Origin: Hymenobacter sp. DG01
GTDB lineage: Bacteria > Bacteroidota > Bacteroidia > Cytophagales > Hymenobacteraceae
Reading direction: 5' to 3'
Assembly: GCF_006352025.1 (NCBI RefSeq)
Contig: NZ_CP040936.1
Location: 1,674,001-1,738,000, forward strand
Length of the DNA: 64,000 bases
Part shown: positions 31,562-45,412 of the stretch, in pieces
How positions within the stretch are numbered: the first letter of the stretch is position 1
Layout of the letters: every line of letters starts with the position of its first letter
Notes under the pieces: generated by a model
Databases searched by the model: none
What the model saw: only the letters and a program-made list of their open reading frames with translations
Told to the model about the DNA's origin: nothing
Translations under genes and position numbers: made by a program

Positions 31562-31909
31562 TCAGCCAGCCGACTCGGCCCAGTCGGGGGCTACTTTAGC
31601 CAGCACCAGGGGCACTACCTCATCGGCGTGGGGCAGGCCCTGCTGCCGCCACAGCTCCCGGCCCTCGCGCACCAGCACGTAGGCCGGCAGCTGCACCGGG
31701 GCAAAGCTGCGCACCACGGCGGGGTAGTTGGCTTCGTCGATGGTGAGCACCTGCACGGCCGCCCCCAGCCGCCGCTGCAGACTGGCCTGGTCAGCGGCCG
31801 AGAAGGTCTGGCCCGGAGTCCCGCCTCGTCGGGCAAGCGGCGGCACCATCACCAGCAGCATGGCTGCAATGGGTGGGTCGGTGGCGGAAAGAGGCAGAAG
31901 ACCGGACAT
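31562..31909 (-). CDS. thioredoxin-fold protein without CxxC
   Basis: This is a 115-residue protein. VQVLTIDEANYPAVVRSFAPVQLPAYVLVREGRELWRQQG follows the second half of a thioredoxin fold, including the cis-proline position (QLPAYVL). There is no CxxC pair, and in fact no cysteine at all, so it cannot be a redox thioredoxin. It starts 20 bases after a predicted transcription start with an exact TAnnTTTG element and a TGA-N6-TCA box. Its place next to a stress protein and the PAS kinase suggests a role in the oxygen or redox response. Confidence 0.65.
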   Translation of the reverse strand: MSGLLPLSATDPPIAAMLLVMVPPLARRGGTPGQTFSAADQASLQRRLGAAVQVLTIDEANYPAVVRSFAPVQLPAYVLVREGRELWRQQGLPHADEVVPLVLAKVAPDWAESAG

Positions 31910-31935: not shown

Positions 31936-31978
31936 CAAAACTACTGGCCGGCCCCGGCCCGTGGCATGACAGGCATCA
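31936..31978 (-). promoter_or_regulatory. FNR/CRP-type box and -7 element for the thioredoxin-like/Usp unit
   Basis: TGACAGGCATCA (31967-31978) is a TGA-N6-TCA box. On the minus strand TAGTTTTG (31943 down to 31936) is an exact TAnnTTTG element. From the first base of the box to the last G of the element the offset is 42 bases, the same as at ccoI and ccoNO. The start codon lies about 20 bases after the expected transcription start. Confidence 0.65.
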
Positions 31979-32058
31979 GCCGGGCTAACTGATATTGATC
32001 ATCTGCCGTTCTTTGCGGAAGTTGCCCCGTTATCTTCTCTTTGTGGTGTCTTTCGCCT

Positions 32059-33651
32059 ATGCCCCTTCCCTTCGCTTCTGGTTCACTTACTGATATTCTC
32101 TTTGCGCAAGCCAAGGACTTTATTGGGCTTTATGACGTTGAGCTGGGCTGGTTTACCCACGTAAATCCGGCCGGTTACCAGCTGCTGGGCTACCCCTCGG
32201 CCCCGGCCCTGCTCACTGACCCGGCCCGCTCCCTCCGTTCCCGGCAGCTGACACCGGCCGAGTGGGACCAGCTGCGCGAGCAGGTGCTGCGCACCGGCCA
32301 TCAGGAGATGGACGTAGAGCTGCGCCGCCAGGACGGCAGCACGTTCTGGGCCAGCATGGAGCTGCATAGCCTTACCCTGGAGGAGCGCCTTCATTTTCTG
32401 GTCCGGATAACGGATACCGACCGCCTGCGGGCCACTGAGCGCCGCCTCAGCCAGAGCGTGGGCCGCTTCGAGGCCGTGTTTGCCCACGCCACCATCGGCA
32501 TTATCGTGTGCAACCGGCAGGGCGATATTGTGCTGGCCAACGAAAAGGCTCAGGAGCTGTTCGGCTACCCCGCGGGCACGCTGCTGGGCCAGCGCATTGA
32601 TGTGCTGGTGCCCGATGCCGTGAGCCACCGCCACGAGCAGCTCCGGGCCTCTTTCAACGCCAACCCCCAGGTGCGGGCCATGGGCCACAACCGCGACCTG
32701 CAGGCCCGGCGCCGCGACGGTTCGGTGTTTCCGGTGGAAGTCAGCCTGAGCTATTTTCACCTCGAAGACGAACTGTTCGTGGTGTCCTACGTCATCGACA
32801 TCACCTTTAAGAAGGAAGCCGAGCGGGAGCTGATTGACCAGCGCCAGCGCGTGGAGCGCCTCAACGCCGAGCTGGAGCAGAAAGTCACGGACCGCACCCA
32901 CGCCTTGCTCACCACCCTGGCCCAGTTGGAAAAGCGCACCGAGGAGCTCGGCCAGGCCCTGCGGGCCGAGCAGGAGCTCGGGGAGCTGAAGTCGCGCTTC
33001 GTGAGCATGGCCTCCCACGAGTTCCGGACTCCGCTCACGGCCGTACTCACCTCCACGGCCCTGATTGAGAAGTACCCCGGCACCGAGCAGCAGGACAAGC
33101 GTGTGAAGCATCTGCAGCGCATCCGGGCCTCCGTAAATCACCTCAACGACATCCTGGAGGAGTTTTTGTCGGTAGGCCGCATTGAGGAAGGCCGCATTGA
33201 GGCCCGGCCCGTGCAGCTCGATTTGCCGGCTCTGCTCCAGGAAACCATTGCCGACCTGCAGGGTCTGCGCAAGGCCGGCCAGACCATTGTGCCCGAGCTG
33301 GAATGCACCCAGCTGGTACGCCTCGACCCCTCCCTGCTGCGCAAAATTCTGGTGAACCTACTCTCCAACGCCCTGAAATACTCAGGCGAGGGCTCCGAGG
33401 TGCGGGTGCGTGCCGAGTGCCACCCCCACCAGGTGCTGATTCGGGTGCAGGACCAGGGCGTGGGCATCTCGGAGGAAGACCAGCAGCATTTGTTTGAACG
33501 CTTCTTCCGGGCCCGAAACGTGGCCAACGTGCCCGGCACGGGCCTGGGCCTCTATATTATTGCCAAGTACCTGGAGCTGATGGGCGGCACCATTGCCCTG
33601 GAAAGCCAGGTAGGCGCAGGCACCACCGTCACTGTTACCATTCCTCTCTGA
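32059..33651 (+). CDS. soluble PAS-PAS sensor histidine kinase
   Basis: This is a 530-residue kinase without membrane segments. It has two PAS domains (about 15-120 and 135-255; GWFTHVNPAGYQLLGYP and GRFEAVFAHATIGIIVCNRQGDIVLANEKA), then a coiled coil and the H box ASHEFRTPL with His320. The ATPase part includes NLLSNALKYS, DQGVGIS and GTGLGLYI. I start at the ATG 32059. The cytosolic PAS domains suggest an internal signal such as redox state, oxygen or a bound cofactor; no conserved heme-binding residue can be assigned. The next gene overlaps its stop by one base, so the pair is coupled. Confidence 0.93.
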   Translation: MPLPFASGSLTDILFAQAKDFIGLYDVELGWFTHVNPAGYQLLGYPSAPALLTDPARSLRSRQLTPAEWDQLREQVLRTGHQEMDVELRRQDGSTFWASMELHSLTLEERLHFLVRITDTDRLRATERRLSQSVGRFEAVFAHATIGIIVCNRQGDIVLANEKAQELFGYPAGTLLGQRIDVLVPDAVSHRHEQLRASFNANPQVRAMGHNRDLQARRRDGSVFPVEVSLSYFHLEDELFVVSYVIDITFKKEAERELIDQRQRVERLNAELEQKVTDRTHALLTTLAQLEKRTEELGQALRAEQELGELKSRFVSMASHEFRTPLTAVLTSTALIEKYPGTEQQDKRVKHLQRIRASVNHLNDILEEFLSVGRIEEGRIEARPVQLDLPALLQETIADLQGLRKAGQTIVPELECTQLVRLDPSLLRKILVNLLSNALKYSGEGSEVRVRAECHPHQVLIRVQDQGVGISEEDQQHLFERFFRARNVANVPGTGLGLYIIAKYLELMGGTIALESQVGAGTTVTVTIPL

Positions 33652-34706
33652 TGAAGACCATTCTGCTGATTGAAGACAACGACCTGATTCGGGAAAATAC
33701 GGCGGAGCTGCTGGAGCTGGCTGGCTACGCGGTGCTGACGGCCGAAAACGGCAAGCAGGGAGTGGAACAGGCCCTGGCTACCCGCCCCGACCTGGTGGTG
33801 TGCGACATTATGATGCCCGTGCTGGATGGCTACGGCGTGCTGCAGATTTTCAACCAGAACCCCCAACTCTCGGGGGTGCCTTTCATCTTCCTGACCGCCA
33901 AAACCGAGCGCACCGACCAGCGCCGGGGCATGGAGCTGGGCGCAGATGATTACCTGACCAAGCCCTTCGATGAAACGGAGCTGCTGAGCGCCATTACCGG
34001 ACGCCTCAACCGCTTCCGCCACCTCAAGCCCGACTACGACCTGCAGCAGCCCGGCGCCCTTACTGAGTTTCTGGACGATGCTTCGGCCGTGGGCAAGCTC
34101 TCTGACCTGGTGGCCGACCGGCGGCCTCATACCTTGCGCAAAAAGCAGGAAGTGTACGTGGAGGGCGACGAGCCCACGCGCCTGTACTTTGTGCAGGAAG
34201 GCCGGGTAAAAACCGTGCGCCGCACCGCCGCCGGCAAAGAGCTGATTACGGGCGTGTACGGGGCCGGCGAGTTTTTCGGCTACCTGCCCCTGCTGCAGCA
34301 AACCCCGCATGACGACACGGCCGTGGTGCTCGACGACGCGACCCTGCTTTACATCCCGCGCGAGGATTTCACCCAGCTGGTGCACCGCAACCCCGCCGTG
34401 GGTCAGCAGTTTATCCGGCTGCTGGCGGGCCGCGTGAGTGAGCGGGAGCAGCAGCTGGTAGGCATGGCCTATAACTCCCTGCGCCGCCGGGTGGCCGATA
34501 CGCTGCTGCGCATGCACGAGGAAGCCGGCGCCACCCCGGAAGCCCTCATTCAGCTCTCCCGCGACGACATGGCCGCCGTAGTTGGCACCGCTCCCGAATC
34601 CCTGATCCGGACTCTGAGCGAGTTCAAGCAGGATGGTCTGGTAGAATTGACGCCCAAAGGAATTCGGGTGCTGCAGCCTCAGAAGCTGCGCCAGCCCAAC
34701 TGGTAG
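33651..34706 (+). CDS. response regulator with CRP/FNR DNA-binding output
   Basis: This is a 351-residue regulator. The receiver domain has Asp52 and Lys104 (DIMMPVLDG, DYLTKPFDE). A cyclic-nucleotide-type beta-roll follows (about 145-260: RKKQEVYVEGDEPTRLYFVQEGRVK, YGAGEFFGYLPLL), then a dimer helix and a CRP winged helix (SRDDMAAVVGTAPESLIRTLSEF). Glu316 and Arg320 align with FNR Glu209 and Arg213, which read the TGA half-site; FNR Ser212 is replaced by Ile. It has no N-terminal cysteine cluster, so it is not an iron-sulfur FNR. Phosphorylation by the coupled PAS kinase probably replaces direct oxygen sensing. Likely targets are the TGA-N6-TCA boxes in this region. Confidence 0.93.
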   Translation: MKTILLIEDNDLIRENTAELLELAGYAVLTAENGKQGVEQALATRPDLVVCDIMMPVLDGYGVLQIFNQNPQLSGVPFIFLTAKTERTDQRRGMELGADDYLTKPFDETELLSAITGRLNRFRHLKPDYDLQQPGALTEFLDDASAVGKLSDLVADRRPHTLRKKQEVYVEGDEPTRLYFVQEGRVKTVRRTAAGKELITGVYGAGEFFGYLPLLQQTPHDDTAVVLDDATLLYIPREDFTQLVHRNPAVGQQFIRLLAGRVSEREQQLVGMAYNSLRRRVADTLLRMHEEAGATPEALIQLSRDDMAAVVGTAPESLIRTLSEFKQDGLVELTPKGIRVLQPQKLRQPNW

Positions 34707-34734
34707 CCTCCAGCACGAAGCCCCGGTCGGAGGA

Positions 34735-34854
34735 ACGCCTACCCCCATCAACCACCCAAACCCAGTGGCCGGTCCGCCGTCGAAGGCGTCCGGCCGGTTG
34801 GCTTCGTGCCAACTCATGCTCGGTTGGGTTTAGGTGGTTGATGGGGGTAGGCGT
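34735..34854. repeat. MITE-like element with 30-bp terminal inverted repeats
   Basis: Arms at 34735-34764 and 34825-34854 match with one mismatch over 30 bases and start ACGCCTACCCCC. The 60-base centre contains GGCTTCGTGC, whose complement GCACGAAGCC also occurs inside the element at 44735-44873. It has no open frame and lies between the response regulator and the cupin. Confidence 0.7.
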
Positions 34855-34883
34855 GGCTGAGTGCGGAAGCTCAGCCGTTGGGG

Positions 34884-34926
34884 TGAGTTTTGTCATGCCG
34901 AGCGGACGGATTGAGGGCGTACTTCG
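34884..34926 (+). promoter_or_regulatory. FNR/CRP-type box and -7-like element for the cupin
   Basis: TGAGTTTTGTCA (34884-34895) is a TGA-N6-TCA box. GTACTTCG ends at 34926, 42 bases from the start of the box, where the -7 element lies in the other members of this set. Its match to TAnnTTTG is only partial. Confidence 0.5.
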
Positions 34927-34976
34927 GGCCGGCAAGCCGGGGCGGAAGTCACCGCCCGGCTCAGCCTTTTCCGCTC

Positions 34977-35285
34977 ATGTTCCCCTCCCTGAAAACCGGC
35001 AGCCTGCTCCAGGGCCAGCACACGCCCGTTGGCCCCCAGAAAGCCCTGGTTTTGCTCGACAAAGCCGGCCAGAAAATCATCTACAAAACCTTCACGGCCG
35101 GCGAAGTTATGCCTACGCACCACGCCAGCGTGGACGTACTGGTAGTGGTACTGGCCGGGCGGCTCATCATCACCCAGGAAAGCAGCCCGGTGGAAGTAAC
35201 CACCGACGACTATGTGGTTATTGCCAACGGCGCCCCTCACTCCCTGCACTGCCTTGAAGACGCCCGCATTCTGATTTACCGCTAG
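34977..35285 (+). CDS. small cupin-domain protein
   Basis: This is a 102-residue single cupin. The two cupin motifs are visible: GEVMPTHHASVDVLVVVLAGRLII and DDYVVIANGAPHSLHCLED, with histidines in the usual metal-binding places. Such small cupins bind a metal ion and may be sensors or enzymes; the substrate is unknown. The ATG at 34977 gives the family length. A TGA-N6-TCA box lies 81 bases upstream, which places it in the same proposed regulon as the cbb3 oxidase. Confidence 0.8.
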   Translation: MFPSLKTGSLLQGQHTPVGPQKALVLLDKAGQKIIYKTFTAGEVMPTHHASVDVLVVVLAGRLIITQESSPVEVTTDDYVVIANGAPHSLHCLEDARILIYR

Positions 35286-35369
35286 CCCAGGCTCCCGGTA
35301 GCACCACGGCCCGCTTCCATCCGGTATGGAAGCGGGCCGTGGCATAGGGCACAAAAGGAGCAGCGAAGC

Positions 35370-35747
35370 TCAGAGCACCGATAAGGAACCGCGCTGGCGC
35401 AGCCGGTACTCGAACATGGTGGCAATGTTGAGGGCGCGCACCTTAGCCTCCTCCGCCTTGGGGCCGGTGAAGAGCGTGTCCACGGTGGCCTCGAACAGCT
35501 CCAGCCAGCGCTGGAAATGGGTAGCATCAATAGGCAGGGGCAGGTGCTTGGGGAAGGGCCGGCCATGGTAGCGGGCCGAGCCCAGCAGAATGCTGCTCCA
35601 GAAATCGTACATAATGGGCAGGTGCCGGGGCCACTCTACGCGGGCCACCTGGTTGAACACGGGGTCCAGCAGCGGGTCGTGGTTTACCTGCTCGTAAAAC
35701 GTATCAACCAGCAGGCGGATGTCGGTTTCCGATTCAATATCGGGCAT
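35370..35747 (-). CDS. group III truncated hemoglobin
   Basis: This 125-residue protein has the layout of group III truncated hemoglobins: DIRLLVDTFYEQVNHDPLLDPVF, then WPRHLPIMYDFWSSILLG, YHGRPFPKHLPLPI and the proximal histidine in ATHFQRWLELFEATVD. These bind heme and ligands such as O2 or NO. It follows a small four-helix membrane protein by 36 bases on the same strand, and the pair faces the ccoI-ccoS genes. This setting suggests a role in oxygen or NO handling under low oxygen. Confidence 0.92.
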   Translation of the reverse strand: MPDIESETDIRLLVDTFYEQVNHDPLLDPVFNQVARVEWPRHLPIMYDFWSSILLGSARYHGRPFPKHLPLPIDATHFQRWLELFEATVDTLFTGPKAEEAKVRALNIATMFEYRLRQRGSLSVL

Positions 35748-35783
35748 TGCGGTGAGGATAAGGGGTAGGGAGAAACAGGGAAA

Positions 35784-36278
35784 TCAGGCGGCCTGGGGCA
35801 CGGCGGGTTGGCCCTGGGGCTGCTGGCCGGCTACCCGCAGCGCCCAGCGGAACCCCCAGCAGCCGGTCAGCAGCAAGGTCAGGAGCTTCACCACTTCCAG
35901 CCCGATGTACACCGTGTGCAGGGAGTTGGGCGGGGCCGGGTGGCCGGCCAGCAGGGCCAGGGCGCGCACATCCAGGGCCGGCAGCAGCCAGGCCGTCTGC
36001 AGCAGCAGCACCCCGCTCAGCAGCCCCAGCGCCGTGCCGATGTGGGCCGGCACCCGGCCGTAGAAGCCACTTACAACGGCCACTGCGGCCAGCAGCAGCT
36101 CGGCCTTGTTGAGGGCCGCAAACACAATCCGCCCGATGCCCAGGCCCAGCGGCACGGTAATGTGCGGGGCCGTAAACTTGAGCGGGGCTTCCAGAAACGA
36201 AATACCGGCCACCATGCCGGCCCACACGAACAGGGCCAGGGTGAGCAGCAGAGAGGCCGTAGCGTGCGCGCGGGGCAT
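35784..36278 (-). CDS. four-helix integral membrane protein next to truncated hemoglobin
   Basis: This is a 164-residue protein with four predicted membrane helices (about 8-28, 47-70, 78-100 and 120-145). The first helix ends in AGISFLEAPLKFTAPHITVPLGLGIGRIVF, a charged and conserved-looking loop. I recognise no enzyme family; it is loosely like DUF4149-type proteins. Coupling to the hemoglobin gene suggests a linked role, perhaps as a heme- or redox-linked membrane partner. The C-terminal tail QPQGQPAVPQAA is probably disordered. Confidence 0.65.
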   Translation of the reverse strand: MPRAHATASLLLTLALFVWAGMVAGISFLEAPLKFTAPHITVPLGLGIGRIVFAALNKAELLLAAVAVVSGFYGRVPAHIGTALGLLSGVLLLQTAWLLPALDVRALALLAGHPAPPNSLHTVYIGLEVVKLLTLLLTGCWGFRWALRVAGQQPQGQPAVPQAA

Positions 36279-36492
36279 AGCAGTAAAGTTTGCGTGTGAT
36301 TTGATATCGAAGGCTAATCAAAGGTCAGCGCCAGGCCGAACAGCGCCAACCGTCATGAGGCTCCCGCTCTCCCCAAGGCGAGGGGACCGGGGGAGGTTCC
36401 ATCAGGTGCTACCCCAGGGCCTAACGGCTAACCTGTCGCAAAGGTCGGCTGGCGCAGCCAGCACTAGGCTGAGATAAATCAGGCGGGCGGGC

Positions 36493-36535
36493 TGACATTC
36501 ATCAGGGAACGGGCGCGCCAGCCGGGGGAGCTTTG
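36493..36535 (+). promoter_or_regulatory. FNR/CRP-type box and -7 element of ccoI-ccoS
   Basis: TGACATTCATCA (36493-36504) is a TGA-N6-TCA box flanked by GGGC and GGG. GAGCTTTG (36528-36535) fits nAnnTTTG. The offset from box start to last G is 42 bases, which places the box centre near -41.5, the class II activator position. Confidence 0.68.
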
Positions 36536-36560
36536 GGGTTGAAACAGCCCGCTTTTGCCC

Positions 36561-39017
36561 GTGCCTACTCTTGCCTCTGCCCCTACCCCCGTCCGCGTTG
36601 CCTGCTCGCACTGCGGCGACGAGTGCCCCGACCAGCCCATCCGGCTGGCGGCCCGGCCCGAGCTGCATTTCTGCTGCCAGGGCTGCCAGGCCGTGTACGA
36701 GCTGCTCGACCAAAGCAACCTGTGCACCTACTACCGCCTCGACGACAAGCCGGGCCAGAAAGTAAAGGACGTGGAGCTGCCCGGCCGCTTCGACTACCTG
36801 GAGGTGGAGTCGGTGCAGGGGCAGCTGCTGGCGTTTCGCTCCGACACGCTGGCCCGCCTCACCCTGAGCATTCCGCAGATGCACTGCGCCTCCTGCATCT
36901 GGCTGCTCGAAAACCTGTTCAGGCTCAACCCCGGCATCACGGCTTCGCGGGTAAATTTCCTGCGCAAAGAGCTTACCGTCAGCTACAATCCCACGGCCAC
37001 TACCCTCAAAGACGTGGTGAAGCTGCTGGCTTCGGTGGGCTATGAACCTCAAATTACCCTGGCCGAGCTGGGCGCCCAGCCCCACCACGCGGGCCGCACG
37101 CTCTACTACCAGCTCGGTCTGGCGGCGTTTGCCTTCGGCAATGTGATGCTGATGGCCTTCCCCGACTACTTTTCCTTCACGGAGCAGCTGCAGGCCTCGT
37201 TCGGGCGGTTTTTTGGGTGGCTGAGCGTGCTGCTGAGCTTGCCGGTGCTGCTGGTGAGTGCGCGCGGCTTCTACCGCTCGGCCTGGCAGGGGCTGCGCCA
37301 ACGCTACATCAACCTCGATTTTCCCATCAGCCTGGGCCTGACGGCCCTGTTCCTGACCAGCCTCTACGACATTGCCACCGGGCGTGGCCCCGGCTACCTA
37401 GATTCGTTTACGGGCCTCGTGTTTTTCATGCTGATTGGCAAGTGGGTGCAGCAGCGCACCTACGACGCCCTGCGCTTCGACCGGGACTTCACCTCCTACT
37501 TTCCGGTGGCCGTCACGCTGCTCGGGCCGGGCGGGCAGGAGCAGTCGGTGCCGGTGCGGGAGCTGCGGGCAGGCCAGCGGATACGGGTGCGCCACCAGGA
37601 AATTGTGCCGGCCGATGCCGTGCTGCTGCGCGGACAGGGCCAGATTGACTACAGCTTCGTGACGGGCGAAAGCGTGCCGGTGGCGCGCACCTCGGGCGAG
37701 GTGGTGTACGCTGGCGGCCGGCAGGTAGGCGAGGCCGTGGAGCTGGAAGTAGTGCGCGAGGTGTCGCAGGGCTACCTCACCCAGCTCTGGAACAACCCCG
37801 CCTTCCAGAAGGAGGAAAAGGCTACCCTGGAAACCTACGCGAACCGTGTGGGCCGCTACTTCGTGGCCGTGACCCTGGTGCTGGCCCTGGGCGCGGTGGC
37901 CTACTGGCAGCTGCAGGGCCAGCCCGTTATGGCCTTGCGGGCCTTTACCTCGGTGCTGGTTATTGCCTGTCCCTGCGCCCTCTCGCTGGCTACGCCATTT
38001 GCCCTGGGCGCCGCGTTGCGGGCGCTAGGGCGCCGCAAGCTCTACCTCAAAAACTCAGGGGTAGTGGAAACCCTGGGCCGCGCCGATACCATCGTGTTCG
38101 ACAAAACCGGCACCCTCACCGATGTGAAGCGCTCCGAGGTGGAATACCGCGGCCCGGCCCTGAGCCCGGCCCAGCAGCAGGCCCTGGCCGCCGTGGTAGG
38201 GCAGTCAACCCACCCCCTGAGCCAGCGCCTGGCCGCCGAGCTGCCCGCCGCCCTGGCCGTGGTGGAGAACTTCCGGGAAGTGCCGGGCCAGGGCCTGACG
38301 GGCACCGTAGGCGGAATGGATGTGCGGGTGGGGTCGGAGGCGTTTGTGGGGGTAGGAAGCGCCGCCCCAGCAGCCCCAGTACCGGAAGCTCCCGCTGCCA
38401 CTTCCGATGCGCTGCAGTCCCGTGTGTACGTGCGCCTGGAGGGGGTGCAGGGCTGCTACCTGCTGCGCAACGTGTACCGCGAGGAGCTGCGCCCGGTGCT
38501 GGCCGAGCTGGGGCAGCACTACCACCTGGCGGTGCTCTCCGGCGACAACGACACGGAGCAGGACCGCCTGCGCGCCTTGTTCGGCCCCGAGGCGGAGCTG
38601 CACTTCCGGCAGTCGCCCCAGCAGAAGCTCGACTACATTGCCCACCTCAAGCAGCAGGGCCGCACCGTCATCATGGTCGGTGATGGGCTCAACGACGCGG
38701 GCGCCCTGCAACAGGCCGACGCCGGCATTGCCCTCACCGATACGCTCACCAACTTCTCCCCCGCCTGCGACGCCATTCTGGACGCCGGCAGCTTTGGCCG
38801 CCTGGCCACCTTCCTGAAGTTTTCTCAGGACTGCCTGCAGGTGGTGCTGGGCACGTTTGTGCTCTCCTTCTGCTACAACGGCATCGGGCTGGGCCTGGCC
38901 GTGCAGGGCAGGTTCACGCCCATTGTGTCGGCCATTCTGATGCCCATCAGCTCCCTGAGCGTGATGGTATTTGCCACCCTGCTGGTGCGCTACGCCGCCC
39001 ACCGGCGCCACCTCTAA
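36561..39017 (+). CDS. ccoI: copper-transporting P-type ATPase for cbb3 oxidase assembly
   Basis: This is an 818-residue P1B-type ATPase. An N-terminal cysteine-rich domain (CSHCGDECP, FCCQGCQAVYELL) precedes a heavy-metal domain with MHCASC (Cys109, Cys112). The ion-binding CPC is at 470-472 (IACPCALS). The phosphorylation site is DKTGTLT with Asp514, and the hinge is GDGLNDAGAL. It moves copper out of the cytosol for the CuB site of cbb3 oxidase. No ATG fits the N-terminus; GTG at 36561 is chosen over a TTG two codons earlier. It is followed by ccoS, as in other cbb3 clusters. Confidence 0.95.
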   Translation: MPTLASAPTPVRVACSHCGDECPDQPIRLAARPELHFCCQGCQAVYELLDQSNLCTYYRLDDKPGQKVKDVELPGRFDYLEVESVQGQLLAFRSDTLARLTLSIPQMHCASCIWLLENLFRLNPGITASRVNFLRKELTVSYNPTATTLKDVVKLLASVGYEPQITLAELGAQPHHAGRTLYYQLGLAAFAFGNVMLMAFPDYFSFTEQLQASFGRFFGWLSVLLSLPVLLVSARGFYRSAWQGLRQRYINLDFPISLGLTALFLTSLYDIATGRGPGYLDSFTGLVFFMLIGKWVQQRTYDALRFDRDFTSYFPVAVTLLGPGGQEQSVPVRELRAGQRIRVRHQEIVPADAVLLRGQGQIDYSFVTGESVPVARTSGEVVYAGGRQVGEAVELEVVREVSQGYLTQLWNNPAFQKEEKATLETYANRVGRYFVAVTLVLALGAVAYWQLQGQPVMALRAFTSVLVIACPCALSLATPFALGAALRALGRRKLYLKNSGVVETLGRADTIVFDKTGTLTDVKRSEVEYRGPALSPAQQQALAAVVGQSTHPLSQRLAAELPAALAVVENFREVPGQGLTGTVGGMDVRVGSEAFVGVGSAAPAAPVPEAPAATSDALQSRVYVRLEGVQGCYLLRNVYREELRPVLAELGQHYHLAVLSGDNDTEQDRLRALFGPEAELHFRQSPQQKLDYIAHLKQQGRTVIMVGDGLNDAGALQQADAGIALTDTLTNFSPACDAILDAGSFGRLATFLKFSQDCLQVVLGTFVLSFCYNGIGLGLAVQGRFTPIVSAILMPISSLSVMVFATLLVRYAAHRRHL

Positions 39018-39029
39018 CCCTGCCTGCTC

Positions 39030-39194
39030 ATGAATATTATCTTTCTGCTAATCGGTATCAGCCTGGTAGTGGCCCTGTTGTTTTTGGGCGGCTTTTTCTG
39101 GGCCGTGCGCTCGGGTCAGTACGAAGACGACTACACGCCCTCGGTGCGCATACTGTTTGAGGACGAGGACCCCACCCCAACCCCTCCCCACTAG
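39030..39194 (+). CDS. ccoS: cbb3 oxidase maturation protein CcoS
   Basis: This is a 54-residue protein 12 bases after ccoI. It has one membrane helix (IIFLLIGISLVVALLFLGGFFWAV) followed by SGQYEDDYTPSVRILFED, the typical CcoS layout with an acidic stretch after the helix. CcoS is needed for cofactor insertion into cbb3 oxidase. The last residues, DPTPTPPH, and the stop codon are encoded by one arm of an intergenic palindrome (39170-39288), so the tail is probably acquired and not functional. Confidence 0.9.
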   Translation: MNIIFLLIGISLVVALLFLGGFFWAVRSGQYEDDYTPSVRILFEDEDPTPTPPH

Positions 39195-39288
39195 GGAGGG
39201 GGTTGAGTTTGTATCTCAACGATAATCAGTCAAATCGTTGCAATGGTACAATAAGCCCCCTGCCTATTGGAGACGGGTTGGGGTGGGG
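39170..39288. repeat. interspersed palindromic element reaching into ccoS
   Basis: CCCCACCCCAACCC (39170-39183) and GGGTTGGGGTGGGG (39275-39288) are perfect inverted arms. Inner GC-rich parts resemble the elements at 5058 and 43125. The left arm lies inside the ccoS reading frame and provides its final codons. Confidence 0.65.
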
Positions 39289-39290
39289 CC

Positions 39291-39355
39291 TGACATCAAT
39301 CAACCCCCGGGCTGACTTTCGTCATCCCTTCCGCAGCAGCCTTGCAGGACCTTTG
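39291..39355 (+). promoter_or_regulatory. tandem FNR/CRP-type boxes and -7 element of ccoNO
   Basis: Two TGA-N6-TCA boxes occur, TGACATCAATCA (39291-39302) and TGACTTTCGTCA (39313-39324), with starts 22 bases apart, about two helical turns. GACCTTTG (39348-39355) is the -7 element, with the last G 42 bases from the start of the second box. The ccoNO start is about 30 bases further on. Confidence 0.68.
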
Positions 39356-39384
39356 GAGAAGTAAATCACTCACTTCTACAGGCT

Positions 39385-41634
39385 ATGCAAGTCGAAGCCA
39401 TACCGCCGGTTGCGGCGCCCCAGTCGCCGGCCCGCCCCCACACTCCCCCGCGGGCGGTTGATACCTTTTTCTACGATAACAAAATTGTCCGCGACTTTGG
39501 CATTGCCACGGTAGTATGGGGCATTATTGGCATGCTGGTGGGCATTCTGGCCGCTTTCCAGTTGGCCCGCCCCGAGGTGAACATGGGCACCGCCTACACC
39601 ACCTTCGGCCGCATCCGCCCCCTGCACACCAACGCCGTGATTTTCGCCTTCGTCGGCAACGGCATCTTTATGGGGGTATACTACTCCCTGCAGCGCTTGT
39701 GCAAGGCCCGGATGTTCTCCGGGGTTCTGAGTAAAATCCACTTCTGGGGCTGGCAGCTCATCATCGTTTCGGCGGTAGCTACCCTACCCCTGGGCATTAC
39801 TACCTCCAAGGAGTACGCCGAGCTGGAGTGGCCCATTGATATTGCCATTACCCTGGTGTGGGTGGTGTTCGGCTGGAACATGTTCGGGACCATTGCCCGC
39901 CGCCGCGAGCGGCACCTGTACGTGGGCATCTGGTTTTACATTGCCACCTTCCTGACGGTAGCCGTGCTGCACATCGTCAACTCGATGGCGTTGCCGGTGA
40001 GCTTCCTGAAAAGCTACTCTATGTACGCCGGCGTGCAGGATGCCCTGGTGCAGTGGTGGTACGGCCACAACGCGGTAGCCTTCTTCCTGACCACGCCTTA
40101 CCTGGGCATGATGTACTACTTCCTGCCCAAGGCCGCCGAGCGCCCCGTGTACTCCTACCGCCTGAGCATCATCCACTTCTGGTCCCTGATTTTCATTTAC
40201 ATCTGGGCCGGACCTCACCACTTGCTTTACACGGCCCTGCCCGACTGGGCCCAGAGCCTGGGGGTAGCCTTCTCCGTCATGCTGATTGCGCCCAGCTGGG
40301 GCGGCATGATCAACGGCCTGCTCACCCTGCGCGGGGCCTGGGACAAGGTGCGCGAGGAGCCCGTGCTTAAGTTTATGGTGGTGGCCGTAACGGCCTACGG
40401 CATGGCCACCTTCGAGGGGCCGATGCTCAGCCTCAAAAACGTAAACGCCATTGCCCACTTCACCGACTGGATTGTAGCCCACGTACACGTAGGCGCCCTG
40501 GGCTGGAACGGTTTCCTGACCTTCGCCATCCTGTACTGGCTGTGGCCCCGCCTCTACCGCACGCCGCTCTACTCCAAGAAGCTCGCCAACACCCACTTCT
40601 GGCTGGGTACCCTGGGCATCCTGTTCTACGCCCTGCCTCTGTACTGGGCCGGCTTTACCCAGGGCCTGATGTGGAAGCAGTTCAACAGCGAGGGCATGCT
40701 GCAGTACAGCAACTTCCTCGAAACCGTGCTGCAGATTGTGCCCATGTACTACCTGCGCGGCATTGGCGGGGTTCTTTACCTGAGCGGGGTGTTCTTCATG
40801 GTGTATAACCTGGTGAAAACCGCCAAAGCCGGCACGCTGCTGGCCGAAGAAAAAGCCCAGGCTCCGGCCCTGGTACCCGCCGAGCTGGTAGAAGAGCACC
40901 AGGGCGGCCACTGGCACCGCTGGATTGAGCGCCGCCCCGTGCAGCTAAGCATTGCCGCCACTGTGGCCATCCTCATTGGGGGTGCCATTGAGATGGTGCC
41001 GACCTTCCTGGTGCGCAGCAACGTGCCTACCATTGCCTCCGTGAAGCCTTACACGGCACTGGAGCTGCAGGGCCGCGACATCTACATCAAGGAGGGCTGC
41101 TCGAACTGCCACACCCAGATGGTGCGCCCCTTCCGCTCCGAAACCGAGCGCTACGGCGAGTACAGCAAGGCGGGCGAGTTCGTGTACGACCGGCCCTTCC
41201 TGTGGGGCTCCAAGCGCACCGGCCCCGATTTGCACCGCGTAGGCGGCAAGTACCCGCACTCCTGGCACTACAACCACATGCTCGACCCCACCAGCATGTC
41301 GCCGGGCTCGATTATGCCGGCCTACCCCTGGCTGTTTGAGCAGGATATCGACTACAAGATTCTGCCCGCCAAAATCAAGGCCCTGCGCAACCTGGGCACT
41401 CCCTACGCCCAGGACTACGACCAGGTAGCCGTGGACGACGCCCGCCGCCAGGCCCAGGGCATTGTGCAGGAACTGAAGAAGGAAGACATCGAGGTGAAGA
41501 CCGACAAGGAAATTGTGGCCCTGATTGCCTACCTCCAGCGCCTGGGCACCGACATCAAAGTAAAGCAGGAGCCCGCTACCGCCGCCGCGCCGCCTACCCC
41601 GGTCCAACGGGCTTTGCCCGTCGGACCGGGGTAG
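39385..41634 (+). CDS. ccoNO: fused cbb3-type cytochrome c oxidase subunits I and II
   Basis: This is a 749-residue fusion of CcoN and CcoO. The CcoN part (about 25-490) has the 12-helix core with heme and CuB histidines, for example in HTNAVIFAFVGNGIF, WWYGHNAVAFFL and WAGPHHLLYTALP, and HVHVGALGW. A linker and one membrane helix (about 520-545) lead into CcoO, whose heme c site is CSNCH at 572-576 (EGCSNCHTQMVRPF). The enzyme reduces O2 to water with high affinity and pumps protons. Fusion of these subunits is known in Bacteroidota. The last residues and the stop codon lie in a long palindrome (41586-41642). Confidence 0.97.
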   Translation: MQVEAIPPVAAPQSPARPHTPPRAVDTFFYDNKIVRDFGIATVVWGIIGMLVGILAAFQLARPEVNMGTAYTTFGRIRPLHTNAVIFAFVGNGIFMGVYYSLQRLCKARMFSGVLSKIHFWGWQLIIVSAVATLPLGITTSKEYAELEWPIDIAITLVWVVFGWNMFGTIARRRERHLYVGIWFYIATFLTVAVLHIVNSMALPVSFLKSYSMYAGVQDALVQWWYGHNAVAFFLTTPYLGMMYYFLPKAAERPVYSYRLSIIHFWSLIFIYIWAGPHHLLYTALPDWAQSLGVAFSVMLIAPSWGGMINGLLTLRGAWDKVREEPVLKFMVVAVTAYGMATFEGPMLSLKNVNAIAHFTDWIVAHVHVGALGWNGFLTFAILYWLWPRLYRTPLYSKKLANTHFWLGTLGILFYALPLYWAGFTQGLMWKQFNSEGMLQYSNFLETVLQIVPMYYLRGIGGVLYLSGVFFMVYNLVKTAKAGTLLAEEKAQAPALVPAELVEEHQGGHWHRWIERRPVQLSIAATVAILIGGAIEMVPTFLVRSNVPTIASVKPYTALELQGRDIYIKEGCSNCHTQMVRPFRSETERYGEYSKAGEFVYDRPFLWGSKRTGPDLHRVGGKYPHSWHYNHMLDPTSMSPGSIMPAYPWLFEQDIDYKILPAKIKALRNLGTPYAQDYDQVAVDDARRQAQGIVQELKKEDIEVKTDKEIVALIAYLQRLGTDIKVKQEPATAAAPPTPVQRALPVGPG

Positions 41635-41642
41635 GCGGCGCG
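41586..41642. repeat. 57-base perfect-type palindrome covering the ccoNO stop codon
   Basis: Arms at 41586-41612 and 41616-41642 match with one mismatch over 27 bases around a TTT loop. The core GGTCCAACGGGC resembles GGTCCGACGGGC in the element at 44735-44873. The palindrome encodes the last residues of CcoNO (TPVQRALPVGPG) and its TAG stop. Confidence 0.75.
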
Positions 41643-41685
41643 GTCCGAAATCCAAGTCCCTAAGACCTCAAGTCCCCAAGTCCCT

Positions 41686-41904
41686 ATGGAAAAGAAAGTC
41701 CTGCAATCCATAGCCGGCATTGAGCTGTACCCGCTCATCTCCCTGGCCATTTTCTTCCTCTTCTTTCTGGGGCTGCTGGTGTACGTGCTGCTGACCAGTC
41801 GCCAGCACCTGCAGGCCATGAGCCAGCTGCCCCTGGGCGCCCCCGAAGACGCTACCCCCGATCAAACCCTAGAGTACCACCTTAACCACGACGTGTTATG
41901 CTAA
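41686..41904 (+). CDS. ccoQ: CcoQ/FixQ-like small subunit of cbb3 oxidase
   Basis: This is a 72-residue protein with one membrane helix (YPLISLAIFFLFFLGLLVYVLL) near residues 16-37 and a short charged tail. Position between ccoNO and ccoP, size and topology fit CcoQ, which stabilises the oxidase. The final codons overlap the start of the next gene by 7 bases. Sequence identity in this family is always low, so the call rests mainly on context. Confidence 0.8.
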   Translation: MEKKVLQSIAGIELYPLISLAIFFLFFLGLLVYVLLTSRQHLQAMSQLPLGAPEDATPDQTLEYHLNHDVLC

Positions 41905-42221
41905 CCAAGCGCACCTCCCTCCTGACTGTTCTGGGCCTGCTGACCTCTTACCTGGCTACGGCGCAATCCACGGCCGCTACGGGTCCGCAGCCCACCGATA
42001 TTCTAAGCTGGCTGGCCGGCGCCCTGGCCGTGGTGGTACTGCTGATGGGGCTGATGACGGGCGTATCGTTGGCGACGGCCGCCGCCCAGCCCGACGACCA
42101 GGCGGCCCCCGCGGAAGCGGAAACCGCCCCCATGACGGCCTCGGTCGCCCAACCCCAACCCGCCACGCCGGTTCTCACGGCCGCCCCGGCCCTCACCCCC
42201 GAGCAGGTTATTGCCGCATGA
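41898..42221 (+). CDS. small membrane protein between ccoQ and ccoP
   Basis: I do not recognise this 107-residue protein. It has a signal-like N-terminus (MLTKRTSLLTVLGLLTSYLATAQ), one membrane helix (about 36-60, DILSWLAGALAVVVLLMGLMTGVSL) and a proline- and alanine-rich tail. It overlaps ccoQ by 7 bases and ccoP by 4 (ATGA), so it is tightly co-translated. The same layout of an N-terminal signal, helix and low-complexity linker is seen at the start of CcoP, which suggests it could derive from CcoP or serve as an extra oxidase subunit. Confidence 0.65.
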   Translation: MLTKRTSLLTVLGLLTSYLATAQSTAATGPQPTDILSWLAGALAVVVLLMGLMTGVSLATAAAQPDDQAAPAEAETAPMTASVAQPQPATPVLTAAPALTPEQVIAA

Positions 42222-43099
42222 GACGACTACCTTACCTTTTGACCGGAGCCGGAGCCCTGCTGCTAAGCGCGTCGGCGGCCCTGGCCCAGGCCGCCGACGC
42301 GGCCACCCCTACCCCCACCCCGGCCGCCGAGCCCAAGCTGCTGCTGTTCTGGTTTCTGGTGGGTGTGCTGGCCCTGGTGCTGCTGGTGTTTCTGGTGCTG
42401 TTTGTGGCCATTGTGGCTCAGATGCGGCCCCAGCTGCGCCGGGTGTATGAGCTACCCTCGGTGCGCCGCTCCTGGAGTGGCAAGGTGCTGGGCCTGCTGG
42501 TAGGCGACCCCACCCTGGTACGGGGCGAGGTGCGCGACGAAATTCTGGACCACGACTACGATGGCATCCACGAGTTCGACAACGACCTGCCGCCCTGGTG
42601 GAAGTATAGCTTCTACGTGACCATTGTGTTTGCCATCGGGTACCTGGGCTACTACCACGTAGCGCAGGCCGGGCAGCTCAGCCAAGCCGAGTACGAAACG
42701 GAAATGCAGCAGGCCGCCCTGCTCGTCTCGCCCGACGCCGACGACCCCAACAAGCTGACCACCTACGAGGCCCTGGCTTCGGCGGCCGATATCAGCAGCG
42801 GTAAAACGCTGTTCGCCAGCAACTGCGCTGCCTGTCACGGCCAGAACGCCGAGGGCAAGGTAGGCCCTAACCTCACCGATGAATACTGGCTGCACGGCGG
42901 CGAGGTAAACCACGTCTATAAAACCATCAAGTTTGGGGTGCAGGGCAAGGGCATGGTGGCCTGGAAAGGCAAGCTCTCGGGCAAGCAGATTCTGCAGGTC
43001 AGCTCCTACATCCTGAGCCTGCAAGGCACCAAACCTGCCGGCGCCAAAGAGCCCCAGGGCGAGAAGGAAGCCCCCACCAAGCCCGTAGCCAAGCTCTAA
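42218..43099 (+). CDS. ccoP: cbb3 oxidase diheme-type subunit III, single-heme form
   Basis: This is a 293-residue membrane-anchored cytochrome c. A signal-like start and two membrane helices (about 44-67 and 127-147) flank the CcoP N-terminal domain (EILDHDYDGIHEFDNDLPPWWKYSF). One heme c site, CAACHG with Cys203, Cys206 and His207, lies in the periplasmic part. Proteobacterial CcoP has two such sites; only one is present here. It passes electrons from soluble cytochrome c to CcoO. The C-terminal tail is lysine- and proline-rich. Confidence 0.95.
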   Translation: MRRLPYLLTGAGALLLSASAALAQAADAATPTPTPAAEPKLLLFWFLVGVLALVLLVFLVLFVAIVAQMRPQLRRVYELPSVRRSWSGKVLGLLVGDPTLVRGEVRDEILDHDYDGIHEFDNDLPPWWKYSFYVTIVFAIGYLGYYHVAQAGQLSQAEYETEMQQAALLVSPDADDPNKLTTYEALASAADISSGKTLFASNCAACHGQNAEGKVGPNLTDEYWLHGGEVNHVYKTIKFGVQGKGMVAWKGKLSGKQILQVSSYILSLQGTKPAGAKEPQGEKEAPTKPVAKL

Positions 43100-43124
43100 G
43101 TCACTACGTGTGGCCTACCCCGAG

Positions 43125-43310
43125 CCCCCTCTCCGAAAAAGCAGTGGGGCCAGATGGTCATCAGTATTATCCCATTTCATCATATAAAGCGTAGCTCCCA
43201 CGCCGGCCAGGCCAGGTAGCCAGTCTTGAGGCCAGAGCCGAAAGGATGGCGCTGAAACGTCAGGCTCCCCCTCTCCTTTTTCCGGAGAGGGGGCCGGGGG
43301 GTGAGGCCCC
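43125..43310. repeat. interspersed palindromic element between ccoP and ccoG
   Basis: CCCCCTCTCCG plus AAAAAG at 43125-43141 faces its near-complement at 43276-43293. The right half also folds on itself (43267-43276 with 43284-43293). CCGGGGGGTGAGG, shared with the element at 63670, ends it. The space between the arms shows no gene. Confidence 0.6.
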
Positions 43311-43316
43311 AGACTC

Positions 43317-44726
43317 ATGTCCGTTACCCAGTTCAAACCCGACGACTCCTACCGCGACTCCATTGCCACGGTAGATGCGGAAGGCCGCCGGGTGTGGCTT
43401 TACCCTAAGCAGCCCGCCGGCCGGCTCTACAACCTGCGCAAGTGGCTGAGCTACGGGCTACTGGCCCTGCTCTTTGCCGGCCCCTGGCTGCGCATTGGGG
43501 GGCTGCCGGTGCTTATGCTGAACCTGCCGGCGCGGCGCTTCATCATCTTCGGGCAAATTTTCTGGCCCCAGGATTTCTTTATTCTGCTGCTGGCCTCGCT
43601 CACGTTTCTGGTGTTCATCATCCTGTTTACGGTGGTGTACGGGCGGGCCTTCTGCGGGTGGGTCTGCCCCCAGACCATCTTCCTGGAAATGGTGTTCCGG
43701 CGCATAGAGTACTGGCTGGAAGGCGACGCGCCCCAGCAGAAAGCCCTCGACCGCGCCGCCTGGACCTGGAACAAGATCTGGCGCAAAACCACCAAGCACG
43801 CGCTGTTCCTGGTCATCTCGTTTCTGATTGCCAACACCTTCCTGGCCTACATCATCGGCACCGAGGAACTGATCAGCATCATCACCGACTCGCCCGCCGA
43901 GCACCTGGGTGGCCTGACCTCCATGGTCTTGTTCACGGGGGTGTTCTACGCCGTGTTTGCCCGGTTCCGGGAGCAGGTGTGCACCATTGCCTGCCCTTAC
44001 GGCCGCCTGCAGGGCGTCCTGCTCGACAAGGACAGCCTGGTAGTAGCCTACGACTACCGCCGGGGCGAGCAGCGCGAGAAGCTGCGCAAAAACCAGGTGC
44101 GCACCGCCGGCGACTGTATCGACTGCCATCAGTGCGTGCAGGTGTGCCCCACCGGCATCGACATCCGCAACGGGGCTACCCAGCTGGAGTGCGTGAACTG
44201 CACGGCCTGCATTGACGCCTGTAACCGCATGATGGATTTGGCCGGCCTGCCCCAGGGCCTGATCCGGCACGCCTCCGTAAACAACATTGCCGAGGGCACC
44301 CGCTTCCGCCTGACGGGCCGGGTGAAGGCCTACTCCACCGTGCTGGTGGTGCTGCTGACCGTGCTGACGGGCCTGCTGGTGTCGCGCTCCAACGTGCAGG
44401 CCACGGTGCTGCGCACGCCGGGGCAGCTGTTCCAGAAAACACCTCAGGGCACCATCACCAACCTCTACAACATCTCCGTCATCAACAAAACCAACGCCCC
44501 CTACCCCCTCACGCTGCGGGTACTGGAGCCGGCCCAGGGTCGGATTTCCCTGGTGGGCGGCCAGGGCCTGAAGCTGCCGGCCCAGGGCATCGTGGAGGGG
44601 GTATTCTTCGCCGAGCTGCCCCGCACGGCCCTGCACCACACCAACCAGCCCCTGCGCATCGGCCTGTATAGCGGCAACCGGCTCATTGCCGAAGCCAGCA
44701 CCAAGTTCCTGGGCCCGGTGCAGTAG
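43317..44726 (+). CDS. ccoG: cbb3 oxidase accessory iron-sulfur protein CcoG
   Basis: This is a 469-residue membrane protein with helices near residues 40-60, 80-105, 155-180, 195-215 and 340-360. The cysteine motif CGWVCPQTIFLEMVFRRIEY is typical of CcoG/FixG. Two 4Fe-4S ferredoxin-type clusters are bound by CIDCHQCVQVCP and CVNCTACIDACN. A C-terminal Ig-like domain (IG_FixG_C) follows from about 370. CcoG acts in copper reduction and oxidase assembly. It is separated from ccoP by a repeat element. Confidence 0.96.
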   Translation: MSVTQFKPDDSYRDSIATVDAEGRRVWLYPKQPAGRLYNLRKWLSYGLLALLFAGPWLRIGGLPVLMLNLPARRFIIFGQIFWPQDFFILLLASLTFLVFIILFTVVYGRAFCGWVCPQTIFLEMVFRRIEYWLEGDAPQQKALDRAAWTWNKIWRKTTKHALFLVISFLIANTFLAYIIGTEELISIITDSPAEHLGGLTSMVLFTGVFYAVFARFREQVCTIACPYGRLQGVLLDKDSLVVAYDYRRGEQREKLRKNQVRTAGDCIDCHQCVQVCPTGIDIRNGATQLECVNCTACIDACNRMMDLAGLPQGLIRHASVNNIAEGTRFRLTGRVKAYSTVLVVLLTVLTGLLVSRSNVQATVLRTPGQLFQKTPQGTITNLYNISVINKTNAPYPLTLRVLEPAQGRISLVGGQGLKLPAQGIVEGVFFAELPRTALHHTNQPLRIGLYSGNRLIAEASTKFLGPVQ

Positions 44727-44734
44727 CCCGCTCT

Positions 44735-44873
44735 CGGTCCGACGGGCAGCGCCCGTCTCGGGGCCGGTTGCCGCCCGCACCTCCAGAGCCACCTGCACAT
44801 CCTACCCCCTCCCGAGTTTCCAACCTCAGCACGAAGCCAACCGGCCCCGAGACGGACGCTGCCCATCGGACCG
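44735..44873. repeat. MITE-like element with 36-bp inverted repeats
   Basis: Arms at 44735-44770 and 44838-44873 match with two mismatches over 36 bases. The outer ends CGGTCCGACGGGC are shared with the palindrome at 41586, and the inner AGCACGAAGCC is shared with the element at 34735. It fills almost the whole gap between ccoG and ccoH. Confidence 0.75.
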
Positions 44874-44896
44874 GGGCCAGGCTTACTGTATTCAAG

Positions 44897-45373
44897 ATGA
44901 TGACCATGACTTCTCCTACCAAGCGCACGTTCTGGCCCTACGCCATTATTGCGGCGTTCGTGCTGTTTGCCGGCTTTATCGGCTACCTTGTGCAGCAGGC
45001 CATGCGCACCAGCGTGGACCTGGTCAGCCCCGATTATTACCAGCAGGAGCTGGCTTACCAGCAGCGCATGGAAACCGTGGCGCGCACGGCGGCCCTGCCG
45101 GCCCCGGTTGAAATTGCGTTTGATGCCGCCGCCGAGCGACTCACGCTGCGGCTGCCCGCCGCCATGGCCGGCCAGGCCGTGAAAGGCCAGCTCCACCTGT
45201 TCCGCCCCTCCGATCAGCACCTGGATTTCAGCCTGCCCCTGCAGCTTTCCGCGCAGCTGGAGCAGCAAATCAGCACGGCCCGCATGCAGCCCGGCTACTG
45301 GCGCGTGCGCCTGGATTTCACGGCCAATGGGCAGACGTATTTTGTGGAAAGAAATATCACCCTCGGCAACTGA
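44897..45373 (+). CDS. ccoH: FixH-family protein (CcoH)
   Basis: This is a 158-residue protein with one N-terminal membrane helix (YAIIAAFVLFAGFIGYLVQQA) and a periplasmic domain containing VDLVSPDYYQQELAYQQRMETVART, the usual FixH/CcoH signature. It assists late assembly of cbb3 oxidase. I chose the ATG at 44897 because the upstream part of the frame lies inside the repeat element. Its TGA stop codon forms the first half-site of a TGA-N6-TCA box for the next gene. Confidence 0.9.
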   Translation: MMTMTSPTKRTFWPYAIIAAFVLFAGFIGYLVQQAMRTSVDLVSPDYYQQELAYQQRMETVARTAALPAPVEIAFDAAAERLTLRLPAAMAGQAVKGQLHLFRPSDQHLDFSLPLQLSAQLEQQISTARMQPGYWRVRLDFTANGQTYFVERNITLGN

Positions 45374-45412
45374 TTTTCGTCATGCCCGGCCCGGCAGCAG
45401 CGGCCGTACTTG
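45371..45412 (+). promoter_or_regulatory. FNR/CRP-type box upstream of the TauE/SafE-like gene
   Basis: TGATTTTCGTCA (45371-45382) is a TGA-N6-TCA box that begins in the ccoH stop codon. CGTACTTG (45405-45412) stands at the position of the -7 element, 41 bases from box start to last G. It would drive the TauE/SafE-like, Usp and hemF genes. Confidence 0.5.

Follow-up and report, generated by a model that had tools for sequence, protein, structure and literature searches.

A conserved paired-box promoter geometry around the cbb3 oxidase island of Hymenobacter sp. DG01 and a receiver-CRP hybrid as its likely reader in the genus

The window studied here is a stretch of 64,000 nucleotides from Hymenobacter sp. 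DG01 (contig NZ_CP040936.1, positions 1,674,001 to 1,738,000 of the forward strand), and window coordinates count from its first letter. It holds an island of genes around a cbb3-type oxidase: a thioredoxin-like/universal stress protein (Usp) unit, a PAS histidine kinase gene whose stop overlaps by one base with the start of a gene for a receiver-CRP hybrid, a small cupin gene, a ccoI-type copper ATPase gene, and a fused ccoN-ccoO gene, after which ccoP- and ccoG-like genes come. Promoters of this island carry the palindrome TGA-N6-TCA. We describe the geometry of these promoters, its conservation among relatives, and the protein that may read it.

Box pairs and -7 elements of the island

An initial annotation of the sequence had placed six TGA-N6-TCA boxes (starting at 31967, 34884, 36493, 39291, 39313, and 45371), all of which were found at these coordinates. 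Its view of the single box as the regulatory unit had to be replaced: the unit is rather formed by two sites 22-23 bp apart. Partner boxes at 31990-32001 and 36470-36481 had been overlooked, and three promoters of the window reveal box pairs, with spacings of 23, 23, and 22 bp. Altogether, the window contains 17 TGA-N6-TCA sites where 5.6 are expected, a number reached in none of 100 shuffles.

A fixed offset of 42 bases (41 at one promoter) had also been proposed between the box start and the last base of a -7-like element. It is exactly 42 at the thioredoxin-like, ccoI, and ccoNO promoters. The exact TAnnTTTG claimed at 31936-31943 is present as TAGTTTTG on the minus strand, its TTTG end 42 from the box start, and the nAnnTTTG elements claimed for ccoI and ccoNO are GAGCTTTG, ending at 36535, and GACCTTTG, ending at 39355, each at offset 42. 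The claim does not extend well to the cupin and TauE-like genes, whose elements are poor: the former reads only TACTTCG, yet ends at offset 42, and the latter is a poor TACTTG at offset 41. Other loci have TGCTTTG (L013, L014), TAGCTTTG (L021), or TAGTTTTG (L025) at offset 42 of the cupin. Among the 34 oriented boxes of the window, TTTG stands at offset 42 in four (p ~4e-6; ~4e-4 allowing for 85 offsets). Read on the minus strand, box 36470 has a GACCTTTG of its own ending at offset 42 (36439), with which it may form a divergent promoter. On the kinase side of the window (31990-32043), a TTTG ends at offset 53 (42 + 11) from box 31990.

The features are collected in Table 1; the names ccoP, ccoG, ccoS, hemA-like, D-lactate-dehydrogenase-like (D-LDH-like), SDR-like, and Roadblock-like were given by eye. 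The genes ccoN and ccoO form one reading frame in the window, and the aligned stretch contains a stop in some other genomes. Between the hybrid gene and the cupin promoter there is a 30-nt inverted repeat (34735-34764 / 34825-34854) with 97% complementary arms and a 60-nt spacer.

Table 1. Genes and promoter elements of the cbb3 island, in window coordinates
Feature	Coordinates	Strand	Remarks
Usp	30651..31463	-	PF00582
Thioredoxin-like protein	31562..31909	-	name from the initial annotation; Pfam scan without match
-7 element TAGTTTTG, thioredoxin-like/Usp unit	31936..31943	-	many orthologues likewise have a -7-like element there
TGA-N6-TCA box, proximal for thioredoxin-like, distal for kinase	31967..31978	.
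TGA-N6-TCA partner box, 23 bp from the first	31990..32001	.
PAS histidine kinase, second PAS FixL-like	32041..33651	+
Receiver-CRP hybrid	33651..34706	+	Response_reg 4-115, cNMP_binding 161-247, HTH_Crp_2 280-348
Cupin promoter box	34884..34895	.
Degenerate -7 GTACTTCG, cupin	34919..34926	+
Small cupin	34977..35285	+	PF07883
Bacterial-globin-like gene	35370..35747	-	PF01152
164-aa protein, divergent from ccoI	35784..36278	-	Pfam scan without match
-7 element GACCTTTG, possible divergent promoter	36439..36446	-
Box, proximal for divergent unit, distal for ccoI	36470..36481	.
Box, proximal for ccoI	36493..36504	.
-7 element GAGCTTTG, ccoI	36528..36535	+
ccoI-type copper ATPase	36555..39017	+	E1-E2_ATPase, HMA, ATPase-cat_bd
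Distal box, ccoNO	39291..39302	.
Proximal box, ccoNO	39313..39324	.
-7 element GACCTTTG, ccoNO	39348..39355	+
Fused ccoN-ccoO	39385..41634	+	COX1 + FixO domains
Single weak box 5' of TauE-like gene	45371..45382	.	2/4 Hymenobacter upstreams
TauE/DsbD_2-type membrane protein	45450..46187	+	PF13386

Conservation of the geometry in the genus and the class

Footprinting relied on 80 loci, each encoding a relative of the hybrid, with 22 Hymenobacter loci plus the window for ccoNO. In all 23 of these, the ccoNO promoter shows a pair at 22-23 bp and a TTTG end at exactly +42. Upstream of ccoI, TTTG at +42 is present in 25/25 cases and the pair in 22/25; the corresponding numbers for box and pair are 32 and 29 of 35 for the thioredoxin-like gene, 36 and 32 of 45 for the kinase, and 16 and 14 of 16 for the 164-aa gene. 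The cupin has a box within 400 bp upstream in 8/9 other loci with a cupin match. Absence of the boxes from relatives would have spoken against a conserved regulon; instead, they are kept at the ccoNO, ccoI, thioredoxin-like, and cupin orthologues. The exception is the TauE-Usp-hemF unit, previously counted as a regulon member: the window and L018 carry its box, L009, L010, and 12 more distant loci do not (L003 was removed by the filter). With a box in just two of four Hymenobacter upstreams and the poor element at 41, core membership of TauE is not supported.

Spacings were collected from 50 Hymenobacter loci (1.01 Mb, window included) selected for holding the hybrid. Among 103 box pairs 12-60 bp apart, 78 are spaced by 22 bp, 22 by 23 bp, two by 24 bp, and one by 20 bp. 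TTTG offsets from the proximal boxes comprise 90 at 42, nine at 43, 12 at 53, and at most six at any other value. In 31 loci outside Hymenobacter, 35 pairs occur at 22 bp, five at 44 bp, and at most two at other spacings between 12 and 70 bp. In Arcicella (L052, L054), ccoN is preceded by two exact boxes with a spacing of 44 bp (2 x 22), and TTTG stands at 42 from the proximal box.

The genome search suggested along with the single-box rule (box plus -7 element at 41-43) was run with TTTG and gave 29 matches in this genome against 13 in the control. This is a weak enrichment, and the rule was dropped as a means of defining a regulon across the genome. Pairs of boxes with 9-12 bp between them occur at five places in this genome, three of them in the island, and nowhere in the reversed control. 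We defined as composite a box pair followed by TTTG at the right offset. Composites were found in 54/61 Hymenobacter genomes (228 matches), and the class version (AnnTTT, 22 bp spacing), applied to 197 genomes of 118 genera of the class Bacteroidia, occurs in 115 of them (495 matches). In other Hymenobacter genomes composites precede hemA-like, D-LDH-like, Usp, and SDR-like genes (L097, L103, L101, L096, L091, L113), of which Usp was identified by its match to the window Usp; the hemA-like, D-LDH-like, and Usp genes would fit a microaerobic regulon.

The candidate reader and its kinase

The closest relative of the hybrid (96% identity) comes from Hymenobacter latericoloratus. The CRP/FNR domains PF00027 and PF13545 of the window hybrid score over the cut-off, and its receiver (PF00072) has Asp52 and Lys104 in 81/81 aligned sequences. 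An E-x3-R recognition helix serves TGA half-sites, and the corresponding residues Glu316 and Arg320, pointed out earlier, are upheld in 80/81 sequences, window included. None of the Fe-S cysteines of FNR is present at the aligned positions of the window hybrid, whose sole cysteine, Cys51, belongs to the receiver. This residue, next to the phospho-acceptor Asp52 (window 33801-33806), is invariant in 81/81 sequences. The cAMP-pocket Glu and Arg of CRP are absent as well: by alignment by eye, what we take to be the cAMP-contact positions of E. coli CRP are occupied by Y211 (Tyr in 73/81) and D222 (62 Asp, 18 Glu). FixK lacks a receiver and is induced via FixLJ; the hybrid has a receiver, and its gene overlaps the kinase gene. 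No PDB structure spanning both halves was found among the matches listed (60 of 348), nor a relevant title on receiver-CRP regulators among the literature matches listed.

In the genus, 61 genomes were searched for the hybrid (E<=1e-60), cbb3 (E<=1e-100), and CRP2 (E<=1e-50), the sole other strong Crp-HTH protein of this genome (C1:3999481-4000185) beside two weaker matches over the cut-off (3e-6, 1e-5). The hybrid occurs in 45 genomes and cbb3 in 30, all within the 45 (Fisher 2e-6, no phylogenetic correction), whereas none of the 16 hybrid-less genomes has cbb3. Genomes with the hybrid contain on average 4.8 composites, those without 0.7 (p 2e-8, again uncorrected for phylogeny), and the difference persists among cbb3-less genomes (3.3 versus 0.7, p 7e-5). 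From these correlations, the hybrid is the best-supported candidate and the likely reader in Hymenobacter.

In the class, where a hybrid cut-off of E<=1e-40 was applied, composites occur in 86/98 genomes with the hybrid and in 29/99 without (Fisher 1.4e-17). In hybrid-bearing genomes, 42 of the 138 matches listed (of 417) lie within 10 kb of the hybrid gene, where 0.76 are expected. At ccoN, the exact geometry occurs in 46/73 genomes with and 21/37 without the hybrid (p=0.54). Apart from the expected +22 (50 and 17 cases), all other offsets scanned (-20 to +39) are found in 0-4 and 0-7 cases; exact partners at 22/23 together with the ccoN geometry are present in 39/73 and 14/37, respectively. 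Thus, the geometry in cis is a trait of the class, and its reader probably differs among genomes. The hybrid as the only reader of the geometry was dropped, since hybrid-less class genomes show composites and the same ccoN geometry. The initial annotation had called the hybrid the natural reader, which is likely in Hymenobacter, where all 30 cbb3 genomes have it; the class geometry alone cannot identify it.

To characterize possible other readers, 18 hybrid-less class genomes were selected that have a class II box upstream of ccoN. A Crp-HTH gene lies within 10 kb of ccoN in ten of them and not in the other eight. One FNR-like protein per genome was aligned (n=18; ten near ccoN, eight by strongest match) and judged by what we take to be the FNR cysteine positions. 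All 18 show E-x3-R, an N-terminal CxxC, and a Cys within an xCx(I/V)P stretch; some of them (e.g., G121) have no clear third N-terminal Cys of the FNR type. In some other class genomes, the reader of this grammar is probably an FNR-like protein with such cysteines.

The second PAS domain of the kinase has FixL as its best PDB match (1d06, 2.7e-11), followed by 10jx, more FixL entries, and DosP. The position of the FixL heme histidine, presumably the heme ligand, is His in 32/32 aligned kinases whose fetched locus also contains ccoNO or ccoI (four further cbb3-linked kinases were left unaligned there) and in 27/38 other kinases (p 6e-4, which ignores kinship). These features fit heme-based oxygen sensing, short of proof.

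A paired-dimer model, its rivals, and its place among known systems

In the available parts of PMC9723704, start-site mapping in Flavobacterium psychrophilum places the TAnnTTTG -7 box at -12 to -5. If this position applies here, offset 42 equals -5; the proximal box, whose centre has offset 5.5, would be centred at -41.5 and the distal box at -63.5 or -64.5. The class II geometry near -41.5 suggested earlier would hold on this basis: the offset to the -7 element is exact, and the position of that element is borrowed from the cited mapping.

We consider it probable that the island is switched on under low oxygen from paired-dimer promoters read by the phosphorylated hybrid. Low oxygen would activate the adjacent FixL-like PAS kinase, which would phosphorylate the hybrid at Asp52. 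Two CRP/FNR-type hybrid dimers would then bind next to each other at a distance of 22-23 bp. The proximal dimer, at -41.5, would contact RNA polymerase in class II fashion, and the distal dimer, at about -63.5, would stabilise it. The footprint of a CRP dimer is about 22 bp. Since the spacing thus equals about one footprint, neighbouring dimers would touch; that other spacings hardly occur suggests selection for this contact. In divergent pairs, the distal site could double as the proximal site of the opposite promoter, as may be the case between the globin unit and ccoI. FixJ and FixK, two steps of the cascade in rhizobia, would be combined in one protein.

Chance or base composition as the source of the geometry is virtually excluded. 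TGA-N6-TCA is short and palindromic, and single boxes with TTTG reach only about twice their control in this genome; the reversed-pattern control, however, gave no match in any of the 61 Hymenobacter and 197 class genomes. Neither did seven control dyads (46-241 sites each, versus 489 for the box) yield a pair at 22/23 in the 50 Hymenobacter loci, or four control dyads a pair at 22 in the 31 loci outside; on these controls, a chance origin was ruled out. A distal box that serves the divergent promoter alone, with no role at the promoter of the proximal box, would accord with two of the three window pairs lying between divergent genes and with the -7 element that box 36470 has at 42. The ccoNO pair, however, has no visible divergent gene, follows a same-strand open reading frame (39030-39194, by eye), and is kept in every Hymenobacter locus of its sample. 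Around single boxes, moreover, TTTG peaks at 64/65, that is 42 + 22/23, which looks like the trace of a degenerate partner. We regard the divergent-only role as improbable.

Somewhat less improbable, although still unlikely, is a stand-alone FNR-like protein, here CRP2, as reader of the cbb3 boxes, with the hybrid in charge of other targets. CRP2 bears the recognition motif ETASR as well as an N-terminal CxxC and another Cys further on, and the Crp-HTH genes near ccoN in ten chosen hybrid-less genomes point the same way. Hybrid-less Hymenobacter genomes contain 11 composites; among those listed (G019, G023, G024, G033, G038) three precede Roadblock-like genes and one an SDR-like gene, and that of G033 adjoins CRP2. 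In this genome, CRP2 adjoins a different box-bearing gene, Roadblock-like, whose box has TTTG at 42 (L116 682-1389, 1838-2215; G000:C1:3998800-4001800); in several other Hymenobacter genomes it stands beside a full composite. CRP2 is missing from 20/61 genomes, including 12/30 cbb3 genomes, all 12 with composites, and is present in 12/16 hybrid-less genomes; as a reader of cbb3 boxes in general, it therefore does not qualify. That hybrid and CRP2 share the boxes at different oxygen levels deserves more weight, without being the favoured view. Both have the same E-x3-R core, this genome encodes two strong CRP/FNR proteins, and in Rhizobium leguminosarum the anaerobox serves both FixK and FnrN according to the available parts of PMC7888657. 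Against such sharing stand the same absences of CRP2 and the mere 0-2 composites in each of the 12 genomes with CRP2 and without the hybrid. To a comparable, minor degree we reckon with a correct geometry under a kinase that senses another signal (redox state, quinone, nitric oxide): the heme of this kinase is putative, FixL-like PAS sequences need not bind heme, and 10jx, the PAS of a multi-sensor kinase, scores almost like FixL. Most of the 15 PDB matches of the second PAS, however, are FixL or the oxygen sensor DosP, and oxygen limitation induces cbb3 in Flavobacterium psychrophilum (available parts of PMC9723704).

Several observations weigh against promoters read by an oxygen-controlled hybrid. 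Boxes are lacking in 9/45 kinase and 3/35 thioredoxin-like upstreams, and ccoNO upstreams outside Hymenobacter carry the box in 10/10 cases and the exact pair in only three. G053 has the hybrid and no composite. Because hybrid and cbb3 share one island, joint gain or loss partly explains their co-occurrence. In the class, the composites of 29 hybrid-less genomes and the equal frequency of the ccoN geometry with and without the hybrid point the same way. On the sensor side, 10jx nearly equals FixL (3.3e-11 versus 2.7e-11), and the FixL-type His is also found in the 27 kinases unlinked to cbb3.

E. coli CRP activates class II and two-site (class III) promoters with a dimer at -41.5 and, in the latter, a second upstream dimer. 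The promoters described here would be alike in having a predicted dimer position at -41.5 plus an upstream one; they differ in the partner fixed at 22-23 bp, and the hybrid lacks the aligned cAMP-contact residues. With FNR and FnrN the system shares TGA-N6-TCA and, presumably, the class II-type position and cbb3 control, and the CxxC plus later Cys of the 18 Crp-HTH proteins from hybrid-less genomes resemble FNR; the hybrid, unlike FNR and FnrN, has a receiver domain and no FNR cysteines. The TAnnTTTG -7 box is that of Bacteroidota sigma-A promoters (available parts of PMC9723704), from which ccoI and ccoNO deviate by an initial G (GAnnTTTG). This would make the element weaker, as might be expected where an activator is needed. 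According to the same parts, oxygen limitation raises cbb3 and heme genes; the main text of that paper mentions neither CRP nor FNR.

In rhizobia, as described in the available parts of PMC7888657 and PMC4999443, FixL-FixJ-FixK and hFixL-FxkR-FixK control cbb3 via the anaerobox TTGAT-N4-ATCAA, which FnrN shares and which has the same TGA-N6-TCA core; FixK has no Fe-S cluster. Both cascades resemble the one proposed for the island in a FixL-type PAS kinase, a CRP/FNR activator without Fe-S cysteines, and cbb3 and heme targets. Here, receiver and CRP activator are one protein, so that no separate fixK transcription step is needed, and the -7 element is of the Bacteroidota type. Rhizobial fixNOQP promoters, as far as Table 1 in the available parts of PMC7888657 goes, have one anaerobox versus the 22-23 bp pairs here. 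Bacteroidetes are unmentioned in the available parts of PMC8510549, and among the matches listed from the open-licence PMC literature, none had a title about cbb3 regulators of Bacteroidota.

Detailed knowledge of the oxygen control of cbb3 oxidases comes from Proteobacteria. This study adds a promoter rule that can be searched for in the whole class and a candidate sensor-regulator pair. Whether the class has one rigid microaerobic promoter grammar, with two TGA-N6-TCA sites spaced by about two helical turns in class II position to TAnnTTTG, and with the reader switched between an FNR-type protein that senses oxygen directly and a phosphorylated hybrid with a FixL-like kinase, we hold to be evenly balanced; if so, neighbouring dimers would touch directly, and the 22 bp spacing would result from this contact. 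It would be a natural case in which the reader seems to have changed and the promoter geometry has not. The parallel to the split between FnrN and FixL/FixK in rhizobia would suggest convergent rewiring.

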